Positions 8,653 to 13,816 of a DNA stretch of 64,000 nt are shown piece after piece. The stretch's first letter is position 1; each line of letters begins with the position of its first letter. This DNA is from an uncultured Bacteroidales bacterium. Lineage in GTDB: Bacteria > Bacteroidota > Bacteroidia > Bacteroidales > P3. Where the stretch lies: positions 62,001 to 126,000 of the forward strand of contig ONQD01000002.1 in the NCBI GenBank assembly GCA_900319865.1, written 5' to 3'. The notes under the pieces are model-generated. The model saw only the letters and a list, made by a program, of their open reading frames with translations. It was not told where the DNA came from and made no database searches. Made by a program: the position numbers and the translations under genes.

Positions 8653-8709
8653 TTTTTTTCTCTACCTACTGTCAGATTTTGCCATCCAAAGGGGTATTGT
8701 ATTATCAGA

Positions 8710-11127
8710 ATGGACAACAACGAGATATTCAATACCACTCTGAGCACCTACTCCACCCTCATATGGAGCATGTGCCGCGACGCTGCCTGTGGTGACAGCG
8801 AGTTGTGCCGCGACTTGTTTCAAGAAGTATCCATACGGCTGTGGCTGCATATCTCCGAACTGGACATGAATGCCAAACCCTATCAGCAAAAAGCGTGGGT
8901 CGAATGGCAAGTGAGACATGTGTTGAGCCACAGCCGCAAACCTCGTGAAATGGAACACTACTTGCCGGAGCATCCCGACGACGACGCAGCCGCCGAGGCA
9001 GAACGGCGCACTCTTGTCGCCGACTTGATGGCACAGCTGCAGGACGAAGACCGACAGTTGATGCAGATGCGGCTTGAAGGCTACTCCGCCGACGAGATAG
9101 CCCAAGCCACCGGCCTGAAACGCGATGCAGTGTATCAACGAATACACCGCATCATGGCTCGTTTGCGCAAGATACTCATTGCTCTGTTGTTCATACTGGC
9201 GGCCTCAGCCATTGCCGTTGCCGTGGTGCCACAATGGCGAAAAGCTGTGTTCCACCGCAGCACTCCTCCACCAAGCCCCGCTTCGAAGGGCAACCAACCC
9301 CACCTCCAGCCCACCTCCGACAGTGCCCCCACTCCGGAAATCGTGGTCAACTGGGACTATCACGGCAACGACCCCTGGTACACCCACACAAGCACCGGGG
9401 GCTCAGGATTCGCCTTCAACCACCTCGACAGCACCATCACCTACTACCGTACCCTCAATGGGCGCACCGTGACTGCGGTGATGCATGTTGACCCTGACCT
9501 CCTATCTCACGACACCTTAACATCTGACAGTATGAATACCACAATGAAACAGGCTGCCCTTGCCGCAGCATTAGTGGCTTTGGCCACAGCCACACATGCC
9601 CAGGTGGCACACGATTTCCAAACCGTCACCCCTCAGGGCGACACCCTCTTCTGTACCATCACCGACTCTACACAACGCCACATCAGTGTGCGTGGCGACG
9701 AATCGGTATGGAACGCACATTACATCCACTATAGCGACACGCTGGTCATCCCAGCCACTGTGGAGCACGACGGCACCGCCTACACCGTCACTGCATTGGC
9801 CGACAGCGCATTCTACAGCCATGGCGAGGTGAGAAGCGTCAGCATTCCCGCCACCATAACCACTATCGGGCGGTTGGCTCTTTCCTACACATTGATAAAT
9901 GACCTCTTTGTGCACGACGGCGTGGAAACCATAGGGGCAAAGGCATTCGGTTCAATCAAGAATGTTGTATATCACGGAACAGCCACCGGCAGCCCGTGGG
10001 GTGCGCTGACCGTAAACGCCTATGTGGAAGACAGCCTTTATTACACCGACAGCACACGCACACGCCTCACCGCTTGCCATCCGCAGTTGGCCCAAGCCAT
10101 TGTGCCCCCATCAGTGCGAACCATCGGACGTCTTGCCTTTGCCGGCTCCAATACACTCACCACAGTCACCTTGCCCGAAGGACTCGACACCATAGGCAAT
10201 TACGCCTTTCAGAGTTGCAGCCAGCTGGGCTCTCTGTCCATTCCTTCTACCGTACGGGTAATAGGCAACTACGCATTCTACAACGCTTTTCGGCAAGATG
10301 GCAGTGCTACAGCAACCATCGCAGATGCTGAACATGTCAGCCCCGATTCCGGGTGCAGTATTGGCAAAGGTGCCTTCGCCTACAGCCATGTAGGGACCGT
10401 CAGCCTCGGCAACCGTATCACCTCCATCGGTAGCGATGCCTTCTCCACCTGCGACCGTCTTGACTCCGTCATCGTGCCCAACAGCTGCACCTACCTTGCC
10501 GAGCGCGTCTTTTGCTACAACTACAACGGCAGCCTGAAGAAAGTCCACCTGCCCGAAGGTCTCGACACCATCCGCGCCGAACTCCTCCACGGCTGTCCCG
10601 GACTGAAAGAAGTAAACATACCCTCCTCTGTGGTCTATATCGACAGCATGGCTTTTCTCGAATGCAGCAAGCTGACCGAACTCACCCTGCCCGAAGGACT
10701 CACCTACATCGGGCAGTACGCCTTTGGGGAATGCTCTCGCGTCCGAAAAATACGCAGCCTTGCCGCCACGCCGCCACAGGCATTCTCCGGCACTTTCGAA
10801 AGGATGAATCCTGAGCTCTCGCTTATCGTGCCGTGCCACAGCGGGGAGGCATATAGCTCCGACCCCTACTGGAGCTATTTCAGCAACATCGAAGAGGACT
10901 GCACTGGCGTTCCAACAGCCGAAGCCCCACAAGTGGCAATCCTCACAATTGAAGGAGGCATCACCCTCGAGGGCTGCACAGGCGACCGCATCCGCATCTT
11001 CGACACAGGTGGAAGGCTCATAGCCGAAACCACCTGCCACGGTACCTGCACCCTCCGCCTGCCCGCCGCAGGCATCTACATGGTGCAGATAGCCGACCGC
11101 CCGGCCCGGAAAGTCGTCGTACAATAG
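8710..11127 (+). CDS. Fusion ORF: ECF sigma-like domain, membrane helix and BspA-like LRR protein
   Basis: 805 residues without a stop. Residues 1-154 look like an ECF sigma-70 factor: a region-2-like part (CRDLFQEVSIRLWLHISELD) and a region-4 helix-turn-helix (YSADEIAQATGLKRDAVYQR). Residues about 155-173 form a hydrophobic helix (ILIALLFILAASAIAVAVV). A 100-residue low-complexity and unassigned segment follows. At residue 275 a second signal peptide begins (MNTTMKQAALAAALVALA to THAQ), followed by LRR_5/BspA-type repeats and a T9SS-like C-terminal domain ending in ARKVVVQ. From residue 275 on it is a paralogue of the next gene, which starts with its own ATG at the same point. So either a stop codon was lost between two genes, or two proteins are made from one frame. 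LRR_5 proteins are usually surface adhesins. Confidence 0.75.
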   Translation: MDNNEIFNTTLSTYSTLIWSMCRDAACGDSELCRDLFQEVSIRLWLHISELDMNAKPYQQKAWVEWQVRHVLSHSRKPREMEHYLPEHPDDDAAAEAERRTLVADLMAQLQDEDRQLMQMRLEGYSADEIAQATGLKRDAVYQRIHRIMARLRKILIALLFILAASAIAVAVVPQWRKAVFHRSTPPPSPASKGNQPHLQPTSDSAPTPEIVVNWDYHGNDPWYTHTSTGGSGFAFNHLDSTITYYRTLNGRTVTAVMHVDPDLLSHDTLTSDSMNTTMKQAALAAALVALATATHAQVAHDFQTVTPQGDTLFCTITDSTQRHISVRGDESVWNAHYIHYSDTLVIPATVEHDGTAYTVTALADSAFYSHGEVRSVSIPATITTIGRLALSYTLINDLFVHDGVETIGAKAFGSIKNVVYHGTATGSPWGALTVNAYVEDSLYYTDSTRTRLTACHPQLAQAIVPPSVRTIGRLAFAGSNTLTTVTLPEGLDTIGNYAFQSCSQLGSLSIPSTVRVIGNYAFYNAFRQDGSATATIADAEHVSPDSGCSIGKGAFAYSHVGTVSLGNRITSIGSDAFSTCDRLDSVIVPNSCTYLAERVFCYNYNGSLKKVHLPEGLDTIRAELLHGCPGLKEVNIPSSVVYIDSMAFLECSKLTELTLPEGLTYIGQYAFGECSRVRKIRSLAATPPQAFSGTFERMNPELSLIVPCHSGEAYSSDPYWSYFSNIEEDCTGVPTAEAPQVAILTIEGGITLEGCTGDRIRIFDTGGRLIAETTCHGTCTLRLPAAGIYMVQIADRPARKVVVQ
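9532..11127 (+). other. Possible separate translation unit: secreted BspA-like LRR protein within the fusion ORF
   Basis: The ATG at 9532 aligns exactly with the start of the paralogue at 11415 (MNTTMKQAALAAA versus MNTIMKRVALAAA), and both are followed by a normal cleavable signal peptide. Translation from here would give a 531-residue secreted protein. No TAnnTTTG box is visible just upstream, so it would depend on the upstream transcript. Confidence 0.5.
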
Positions 11128-11414: not shown

Positions 11415-13073
11415 ATGAATACAATAATGAAACGGGTTGCTCTGGCAGCAGCATTTATGGTCTGGGCTACCGCCTCATTTGCCCAGCAGGCAGACTGGTG
11501 GACACACGATTTCGAGTCTGTCACCCCACAGGGTGACACCCTTTGGTACGTCATCACCGACACAACGCTGCACCACGTCAGCGTCCGTGATTCCTGGCAT
11601 CATTGGAATGAGCACTGGGACGGCATCAGCAGATGCAGCGACACACTGGTCATCCCTTCAACCGTGGAGCACGACGGCATCACATACACCGTCACAGCAT
11701 TGTGCCAAGCCGCATTCGCATATCACGGCGAAATAAAATCAATTGTCATACCTGCAACAGTCACCTCTATTGGAGACTCTGCTCTCGCTTTCAGCGGCAT
11801 AGTAGAACTCATGGTACACGACGGTGTGGATACCATCGGCCCAAAGGCCTTCTGCTTTATCAAGAATGTCATATATCACGGCTCGGCCACTGGTGCCCCA
11901 TGGGGTGCTTTGGCAATGTCTGCCTACGAGGAAAACGGCATCTTCTACCCCGACAGCACACGCACCCGCGTCGTCGGCTGTCGTCCGGGTGTGACACAAG
12001 CCCTGCTGCCCTCCTCGGTGCGCACCATCGAACCCACCGCCTTTAGCAGCATCGGCACACTCGAAACCGTCACCCTGCCCGAGGGTCTCGACTCCATAGG
12101 CTGGCGTGCCTTTTATCGCTGCAGCTCGCTGGGCTCAGTAGTCATCCCCTCAACCGTAAGGGTGGTGGGCGATGAATCTTTCTGTGTTGCTTTTAATCCG
12201 GACGGTAGCGCCACAGTGACCATTGCCGATGCCGAATGCAGCATTGGTTCCTCTGCTTTTGGCGGTAGCGGTATGGGAGCCATCGACCTCGGCAACCGCA
12301 TAACCTCAATTGGAGATGGTGCCTTCGAGTACTGTTACAACATCGACACTATCATCGTCCCCAACAGCTGCACCTATATTGGCAGCTGGGCTTTCGCCGA
12401 CAACTCAAACCTGAAGAAAATCCACCTGCCCGAAGGCCTCGACACCATACATGCCGGACTCCTGGCCTGGTGTTTCGGACTGGAGGAAGTCATCATCCCC
12501 TCCTCCGTGGTATATATAGACAGCATGGCTTTTTGGCATGATAGTAGTCTTACCGAGATCACCCTGTCAGATAACCTAACCTACATCGGGGACGGTGCCT
12601 TCAGCGAATGCATCAATCTTACCGAGCTCACTCTGCCAGCCAGCCTTACCTATATCGGGAAAGCTGCCTTTTACTGGTGCTGGCGCATCCGAACAATACG
12701 CAGCCTTGCCACCACGCCGCCACAGGCCTTCTGGAGCACTTTCGATTATATTAATTTTGAGCTCTTGCTTATCGTCCCGTGTCACAGTGGGGATGCCTAT
12801 GCTGCCGACCCATACTGGAGCTATTTCAGCAACATCGAAGAGGACTGCACCGGCGTTCCAACAGCCGAAGCACCGCAAATGGCAATCCGCACAATTGAAG
12901 GAGGCATCACTCTCGAAGGCTGCACCGGCGACCGCATCCGCATCTTCGACACCGGCGGAAGGCTCATAGCCGAAACCACCTGCCACGGCACCTGCACCCT
13001 CCGCCTGCCCGCCGCAGGCATCTACATGGTGCAGATAGCCGACCGCCCAGCCCGGAAAGTCGTCGTACAATAG
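11415..13073 (+). CDS. BspA-like leucine-rich repeat surface protein with T9SS-type C-terminal domain
   Basis: 552 residues. A signal peptide (MNTIMKRVALAAAF to FAQ) is followed by a beta-rich N-terminal domain and then about twelve LRR_5 repeats of 22-25 residues with the pattern ITSIGDGAFEYCYNIDTIIVPNS-like spacing. The last 70 residues (GDRIRIFDTGGRLIAE, LPAAGIYMVQIAD, RKVVVQ) look like a Por secretion-system sorting domain, which would send the protein through the T9SS to the cell surface. BspA-type proteins bind host matrix proteins or mediate co-aggregation. It is a tandem paralogue of the LRR half of the preceding ORF; the last roughly 80 codons and the 3' flank are nearly identical at the DNA level, pointing to recent gene conversion. 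Confidence 0.85.
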   Translation: MNTIMKRVALAAAFMVWATASFAQQADWWTHDFESVTPQGDTLWYVITDTTLHHVSVRDSWHHWNEHWDGISRCSDTLVIPSTVEHDGITYTVTALCQAAFAYHGEIKSIVIPATVTSIGDSALAFSGIVELMVHDGVDTIGPKAFCFIKNVIYHGSATGAPWGALAMSAYEENGIFYPDSTRTRVVGCRPGVTQALLPSSVRTIEPTAFSSIGTLETVTLPEGLDSIGWRAFYRCSSLGSVVIPSTVRVVGDESFCVAFNPDGSATVTIADAECSIGSSAFGGSGMGAIDLGNRITSIGDGAFEYCYNIDTIIVPNSCTYIGSWAFADNSNLKKIHLPEGLDTIHAGLLAWCFGLEEVIIPSSVVYIDSMAFWHDSSLTEITLSDNLTYIGDGAFSECINLTELTLPASLTYIGKAAFYWCWRIRTIRSLATTPPQAFWSTFDYINFELLLIVPCHSGDAYAADPYWSYFSNIEEDCTGVPTAEAPQMAIRTIEGGITLEGCTGDRIRIFDTGGRLIAETTCHGTCTLRLPAAGIYMVQIADRPARKVVVQ

Positions 13074-13201: not shown

Positions 13202-13816
13202 ATGGACAATAACGACACTACACTTTTGGCATCCAGCGGTGATTACCACCAGCTGATATGTTATCAAAAGACTGTGATTGTGTATGACTTGACCTATTGG
13301 TTTTGCGAGCGATATATGGAGCGAAGCAAAGACCGCACCGTCGATCAGATGGTGCAGGCGGCACGTAGCGGAAAGCAAAACATCGTGGAAGGTATCACTG
13401 ACGGGGCGGCCAGCAAAGAGTCTGAACTGAAACTGCTAAAAGTAGCCGCAGGAAGCCTCCATGAGTTGCACGAGGACTATGAGGATTGGCTTCGCTCTCA
13501 CCAACAACCCATCTGGGCAAAAGACAGTGTCGAAATGAAAGCACTATGGGCTGTGGGAAAAGCGCATAGCGATTCGGAGTACTTCATGCAGTTGGCTCGG
13601 ACTCGTCCACCGCAAACCACCGCCAATATCGCCCGCGGAATGACAGAACAGGCTATCTACTTTCTCGACCGACTAATCCAATCCAAGGTGAAACAGTTTG
13701 TAGAGAATGGCGGATTGAAAGAACAGATGTATCGCGTCAGGCAGCAATACCGGCAACAATCCGGATATTACAACAAAGGAAGTAATGGAAACAATGGAAT
13801 GAACGGAATCAATTAA
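13202..13816 (+). CDS. Four helix bundle protein with suffix domain
   Basis: 204 residues, mostly helical. The segment DLTYWFCERYMERSKDRTVDQMVQAARSG then KQNIVEG and SKESELKLLKVAAGSLHELHEDY is typical of the four-helix-bundle family first described from 23S rRNA intervening sequences, and the extra C-terminal part matches the suffix-domain subtype common in Bacteroidetes. Related bundles serve as accessory proteins (Avd) of diversity-generating retroelements, but no reverse transcriptase is near. The last 18 residues are Asn/Gly/Tyr-rich low complexity (GSNGNNGMNGIN). The start is set by the promoter 23 nt upstream; longer in-frame sequence would precede transcription. Function unknown. Confidence 0.8.
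   Translation: MDNNDTTLLASSGDYHQLICYQKTVIVYDLTYWFCERYMERSKDRTVDQMVQAARSGKQNIVEGITDGAASKESELKLLKVAAGSLHELHEDYEDWLRSHQQPIWAKDSVEMKALWAVGKAHSDSEYFMQLARTRPPQTTANIARGMTEQAIYFLDRLIQSKVKQFVENGGLKEQMYRVRQQYRQQSGYYNKGSNGNNGMNGIN

Follow-up and report, generated by a model that had tools for sequence, protein, structure and literature searches.

Regulators that carry a sensor on the same chain include the ToxR/CadC type, winged-helix activators in which a cytoplasmic DNA-binding part is followed by one helix and an extracytoplasmic sensor. Among sigma factors, the excerpted account of ECF52 (SCO4117 of Streptomyces coelicolor) describes a single chain made up of an ECF domain, a membrane region, a Pro-rich stretch and, at the C-terminus, a binding domain, for which positive autoregulation was suggested and proteolytic release proposed; one ortholog has a stop before the binding domain, perhaps an error according to its authors, and the group was stated to be exclusive to Actinobacteria (PMC5826349). 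In IutY from Pseudomonas putida (ECF243), as given in an excerpt of its report, the sigma factor is fused to a membrane-bound C-terminal regulator and is released by Prc and RseP (PMC8999054). In the PorA – PorXY – SigP system of Porphyromonas gingivalis, a T9SS C-terminal-domain surface protein lies upstream of an autoregulated ECF sigma factor according to the excerpted source (PMC7712824), and PMC8103513, also drawn on in part, provides further context.

The locus described here lies in a 64,000-nucleotide stretch of DNA from an uncultured Bacteroidales bacterium, the whole of which is referred to as the window. A gene of 805 codons plus stop on the forward strand (8710–11127) is open from an ATG at 8710 to the stop codon at 11125–11127, and the reading of it as one frame running from a sigma domain through a membrane helix into a leucine-rich repeat (LRR) protein, made in a first-pass annotation of the DNA, was borne out by TIGR02937, hydropathy and LRR_5 matches. 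The first 154 residues (8710–9171) form an ECF sigma domain comprising both sigma regions 2 and 4. Specifically, TIGR02937 (sigma70-ECF) covers residues 7–156 with 64.4 bits against a cut-off of 42.9, region 4 gave a clear Pfam match (PF08281, E 2.9e-9) and region 2 a marginal one (PF04542, 17.2 bits, below the cut-off of 24), while the predicted structure of the protein (mean pLDDT 73) resembles the ECF sigma structure 6dv9_F (E 2.3e-5). Both regions were also matched in 35/35 other family members (E up to 0.1). A single membrane helix follows at residues 155–173 (9172–9228; best 19-residue Kyte-Doolittle mean 3.08), within a predicted helix spanning residues 138–180; since the sigma domain matches stop at residues 152–156 and the helix directly abuts sigma region 4, there is no space for an anti-sigma domain.

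The linker beyond the helix (9235–9495), which is placed extracytoplasmically, begins with a Pro-rich segment and includes a beta mini-domain of four predicted strands at residues 211–259, for which the model is of low confidence (pLDDT 34–53 in the blocks over residues 211–260). It leads to a methionine at residue 275 that begins a signal peptide (residues 275–297; 9532–9600) ending in Ala-X-Ala before Gln298. The BspA-type LRR domain occupies residues 298–735 (9601–10914; LRR_5, PF13306, E 3.2e-53), the assignment being based on the combination of LRR_5 repeats with the signal peptide and on the match of the model to BspA-type LRR structures (4fs7, E 2.2e-13). The chain ends in a DUF6383-like tail domain (10915–11124); neither this tail nor the promoter motif upstream of the gene figured in the first-pass annotation. 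As had also been noted from the sequence at first sight, the signal peptide at Met275 resembles that of the neighboring LRR gene, a stand-alone paralog on the same strand (11415–13073) that was identified by ORF and Pfam searches and has, according to the motif scan, no promoter motif before it. Over their last 95 residues (10840–11124 and 12786–13070, respectively), the fused LRR protein and this neighbor are 95% identical, as compared with 63% in the preceding part, and gene conversion is a possible source of the near-identical ends. Further downstream, 13208–13813 gave a weak match to a 23S rRNA-intervening-sequence protein (28.3 bits, below the cut-off of 33.8).

Residues 1–274 were searched against 120 genomes of the genus at a threshold of E up to 0.001, and some match was found in 111 of them. 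Sequence stretches were taken around the best matches only, so that the family counts given here are no census. The family table, restricted to frames whose sigma match extends into the helix, holds 71 frames in 58 sequences, namely 13 long fusions including that of the window, 4 shorter fusions of 492 residues, 1 split form, 1 cut frame and 52 unfused members. Within this uncultured Bacteroidales genus, the fusion seen in the window thus recurs at 12 loci spread over 11 additional genomes (13 long fusions in 12 genomes, with G119 holding two), the sigma parts of the 12 other loci being about 32–84% identical; at one of them, L024, the sequence runs off the contig inside the LRR. G017, G040 and G118 were considered as sequences with separated parts and rejected, their short frames being due to contig ends (in G017 and G040 the frame is open past Met275 up to the end of the contig), and all three were left out of the count of separations, G118 being uninformative as to fusion. 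Judged by these sequences, the fusion is genuine and is maintained in part of a single genus.

Beyond the genus, a profile of the sigma domain and helix matched 2 of 393 genomes drawn from the order (E 1e-28), both belonging to this genus, and the helix was reached only by the matches of the window's own genome. Among 190 family genomes, matches with E values of 5.1e-25 to 8.9e-22 came from 6 that lie outside the genus. The 62 named loci are all from uncultured Bacteroidales or Bacteroidetes, and the stated host or site is always ruminant (rumen, reticulum, rectum or deer), which would place the window organism in the ruminant gut. The position downstream of ispE could be compared in the window, L021–L026 and L033–L036, where a sigma–LRR fusion was found in 6, the split form in 1 and an unfused gene for sigma domain, helix and tail in 4, three of the latter with a separate LRR gene alongside. 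A different arrangement was seen in L029 (4374–11821) and L030 (6868–14483), which contain a row made up of an unfused sigma gene with helix and tail, an LRR gene, a sigma–LRR fusion and a second unfused sigma gene with helix and tail, every gene having its own promoter motif. In L036 (5983–6975; G088:C14), the gene for sigma domain and helix has one internal TAG within the first ~40 codons and is possibly a broken copy.

The region between the two parts was examined in relatives for a stop or frameshift, as proposed when the frame was first noticed: the fusion was kept at the 12 other loci, and the parts were split into different frames in one relative, G076. In the 12 codons before Met275, an in-frame stop was present in 0/15 sequences, as compared with 11/15 and 7/15 in the other two frames of the same region. 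For 22 stand-alone LRR genes used as a control (those whose start was found by a pattern, among 31 LRR frames of ≥500 codons), the nearest in-frame upstream stop lies 4 to 67 codons before the start, with a median of 8. The sigma part had dN/dS values of 0.09–0.31 in 8 of 11 pairs, these being the pairs with dS up to 0.9, and the window sigma domain gave 0.15–0.24 against G017, G040, G119a and G096; two further pairs that were near saturation gave 0.12 and 0.6, and one was not computable. The linker is under looser constraint (dN/dS 0.15–0.89). As judged from these substitution ratios, the sigma domain is under purifying selection and, because without a stop it is translated only within the fusion, its low dN/dS was counted in favor of the joined chain. 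The sigma and LRR parts of G076 are open in different frames owing to a deletion (about 55 nt by eye), the stop of the sigma frame overlapping the LRR start. This split counts against selection for one chain, as the joined chain is not needed there, and indicates that the fusion is conserved yet not indispensable in every species.

Met275, Ala297 and Gln298 are invariant in an alignment of 13 rows; in a second alignment the Met of one row (G056) is displaced by a single residue. The base at –3 of Met275 is A in 13/13 rows as compared with 43/160 for other internal Met codons, and the codon preceding Met275 is AGT in 10/13, ACT in 2/13 and AAT in 1/13, with AGT making up 12.7% of Ser codons in the fused genes; the 13 rows are related sequences, so these counts are not independent. 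The internal start is spanned by an AT-rich, weakly structured trough of the kind found at initiation sites (9508–9546 in the window). Across the 13 fused genes, the GC content of the 40 nt around Met275 is 0.25–0.38 (0.35 in the window) against gene means of 0.51–0.66 (0.57 in the window), and all 160 other Met codons have a higher GC content (minimum 0.40) than any Met275 site. The predicted folding of 60 nt at Met275 is –1.5 to –4.7, with gene means of –12.8 to –17.8, and in G054, where the trough is least extreme, 6% of windows fold as weakly. The Ala-X-Ala cleavage motif before Gln is retained, and Bacteroidetes favor Gln directly after the signal peptide cleavage site; the hydrophobicity of the signal peptide at 275 is weak (0.75–1.58). 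Position 9532 therefore looks like a working start from which the LRR protein is probably also made alone, so that one frame would give rise to both proteins.

The four shorter fusions (G043, G068, G078 and G090) encode a 492-residue chain of sigma domain, helix, Pro-rich linker, short LRR and tail, and 4/4 are devoid of the internal Met and of the signal peptide. Their LRR shares about 40% identity with that of the window over 92–95 residues; in L063, which is of this type, it scored under the Pfam cut-off (18.2 vs 27.7 bits) and was weak in the structure model (pLDDT mostly 28–42), which was used for its ends alone. The unfused members seen consist of sigma domain, helix, Pro-rich linker and a C-terminal domain. 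Their tails matched those of LRR proteins in an alignment-to-alignment comparison (probability 99.1, E 4.4e-19) in which 39 of 52 unfused tails were aligned, the 13 omitted being mostly near copies, and in which 24 of the 43 collected LRR-protein tails had been picked by eye as window-like, leaving out canonical YPNP-type T9SS tails and near copies, a choice that favors a match.

The tail of the window protein is probably of T9SS type, although borderline: it scored 23.8 bits against DUF6383 in one search and 18.8 in another (cut-off 23.7), was absent from the TIGR04183 matches in the search of its own genome, and no T9SS domain was among the best 50 structure matches for the window model. For the L063 tail, which was modeled with better confidence (pLDDT 76–88), the matches to T9SS structures were the RgpB domain (7pq4, E 1.1e-3), one chain from the complex 8gl8 (E 3.5e-3) and the domain of RemA (8gl6, E 6.9e-3). 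A beta-glucuronidase domain was matched as well (E 6.8e-4), with adhesin and fibronectin domains in a similar range. As other beta-sandwich domains match equally well or better, the fold fits T9SS domains without being diagnostic of them. The window's own genome encodes a T9SS, as seen from SprA, the component searched (2341 bits), and 73 T9SS C-terminal domains above the cut-off; it also codes for an RseP-like protease, as do most control genomes.

A tree was built from 69 sigma domains, and the long-fusion label requires 8 changes on it, at least 5 of them forced by well-supported branches, against a shuffled mean of 12.1; the label is therefore also clustered, and some long branches are unsure. 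Pairwise comparisons gave contrasting values on either side of the helix: between the window and G119a, dS is 0.66 for the sigma domain and 0–0.14 from linker to LRR, whereas G110 and G056 are near equal in the sigma domain (dN 0.02) and have linkers with a dN of 0.86. Taken together with the changes in the tree, this suggests that linker, internal start and LRR appear to move as a cassette between sigma heads, being exchanged near the helix; repeated losses would be the alternative.

A promoter-like motif, TGTCAGATTT-N14-GTATTGTA, is located at 8670–8701 on the forward strand and ends 8 nt before the sigma ATG, a gap which suggests that the sigma message may be nearly leaderless. With up to 3 mismatches allowed, this is the only copy in the window, where 0.02 would be expected, and most of the listed sigma genes have TGTCAGATTT, 14 bases and GTATTATA or a near variant upstream. 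The consensus TGTCAGATTT-N14-GTATTATA gave 192 matches at up to 2 mismatches in the 120 genomes, vs 11 for the reversed pattern, and 72 of the 120 carry it at this setting, the matches having been examined in part. In 61 sequences searched at up to 3 mismatches, 102 sites were found, with 64 before sigma frames (61 of these with the helix), 18 before LRR genes, 17 before other frames and 3 before no frame. Two more copies in the window's own genome form a divergent pair between a second gene for sigma domain and helix and an LRR gene. The motif at 8670–8701 is likely to be an autoregulated ECF promoter. Other genes found behind the motif include small genes of 136–146 codons (L038, L138, L140, L142, L143, L144 and L146), five of the seven having been inspected and being lipoprotein-like by eye, and a family of 428–447 codons with signal peptides (L113, L120, L122 and L130), so that small lipoprotein-like and other exported proteins are represented by this inspection.

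For the production of both proteins, the topology of the chain, sigma activity, promoter recognition, sensing and proteolysis, we infer a circuit to which the tethered sigma domain, the common promoter motif, the ectodomain shared with the exported protein and the second start jointly point. In this scheme, which we consider reasonably probable, the gene encodes a membrane-tethered ECF sigma factor with a surface-type LRR ectodomain and gives two products from one frame under a self-driven promoter loop. Translation from 8710 would yield the whole chain (sigma domain, membrane helix, linker, LRR, tail), anchored so that the sigma domain is cytoplasmic, whereas translation from 9532 would yield the LRR protein alone, exported by its own signal peptide. 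The sigma domain would most likely activate its own promoter and with it LRR output, creating a positive loop. Because the ectodomain and the exported protein share LRR and tail, the tethered ectodomain may read how well the exported protein is exported or bound, and altered engagement or ligand binding would release the sigma domain, probably via intramembrane proteolysis, so that the gene would make both the sensor and the sensed protein. Several observations count against this circuit: the two parts stand in separate frames in G076, the weakly hydrophobic internal signal peptide of the full-length chain would approach the membrane from its wrong side, the trough is milder in G054, an LRR gene lies within 1.5 kb of 27/52 unfused genes for sigma domain and helix, 17 of the 102 motif sites precede other genes and 3 no frame, the T9SS nature of the tail is borderline, and the linker is under looser constraint. 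A related but improbable model treats the full-length chain as a two-membrane receptor, with a cytoplasmic sigma domain, the linker of ~100 residues (96–106 in length) crossing the periplasm and the LRR drawn outside by its tail via the T9SS; the secretion machinery would pull on the tail or jam it while the free LRR protein competes with the chain, and this would release the sigma domain and reset surface-protein production.

A membrane-tethered factor and an internal start at 9532 had been offered by the first-pass annotation as separate possibilities, next to a lost stop codon. The first gained support from the avoidance of stops and from short fusions without an internal start, the second from the A at –3, the low GC content and the weak folding, and the two appear to hold together rather than exclude each other. 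That the frame arises from an assembly or sequencing error in the window, or from a recently lost stop, is scarcely conceivable: the relatives are themselves metagenome assemblies or bins where stated and some loci lie at contig ends, but the open frame recurs at 12 other loci, whose sigma parts can be as little as 33% identical, and this argues that the fusion is not due to chance, and stops are avoided in that frame only. A missed stop and an assembly error were accordingly rejected.

It is rather unlikely that two genes merely share a frame, the sigma–helix and LRR proteins working separately and the joined chain being a tolerated by-product without function. The separate open frames of G076, the strong conservation of the internal start and the unfused genes after ispE in four relatives, three with an adjoining LRR gene, would all fit such an arrangement. 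It is harder to reconcile with 15/15 sequences lacking an in-frame stop where the other frames have them and where stand-alone LRR genes typically have one nearby; any ribosome that starts at 8710 without falling off would yield the joined chain, and in four genomes this chain occurs without an internal start. These same four genomes would favor the converse, that the LRR is never made alone and that the internal Met with its signal peptide is left over from a gene that was once separate, but a remnant would hardly keep three invariant residues and the trough in 13/13 genes, which makes this very improbable. Should the circuit with two products be correct, regulator, sensor and regulated surface protein would be a single reading frame with two starts, membrane-fused ECF sigma factors would be extended to Bacteroidota, perhaps with a link to the T9SS, and with a family of at least 71 frames, a common promoter motif and seemingly mobile ectodomains, the coupling of surface protein export to transcription would become directly testable.

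Among the listed titles and abstract openings from the open-licence literature, none dealt with a fusion of a sigma factor to either an LRR protein or a T9SS domain. The window protein shares with ToxR/CadC-type regulators their layout but is a sigma factor and not a winged-helix activator. Like ECF52, it has a membrane helix and a further domain beyond it on the sigma chain; unlike the window protein, ECF52 has, in the excerpted account, a zinc-finger domain ahead of the membrane as well as a domain that binds carbohydrate. In the window protein the helix follows region 4 directly, the ectodomain consists of LRR and tail, and there is an internal start. IutY likewise carries a membrane-fused part on a sigma factor but is, in its excerpt, an iron-starvation cell-surface signaling protein with an anti-sigma part, and an LRR or T9SS tail is not mentioned there. 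In PorA – PorXY – SigP, as far as the excerpted source describes it, ligand, kinase, regulator and sigma factor are separate proteins, whereas here sigma factor and T9SS-like domain are on one chain. Membrane-fused ECF sigma factors as such are thus known, and what is new in the window protein is the absence of an anti-sigma domain, the LRR ectodomain, the T9SS-like tail and the internal start, which probably also yields the LRR protein on its own.
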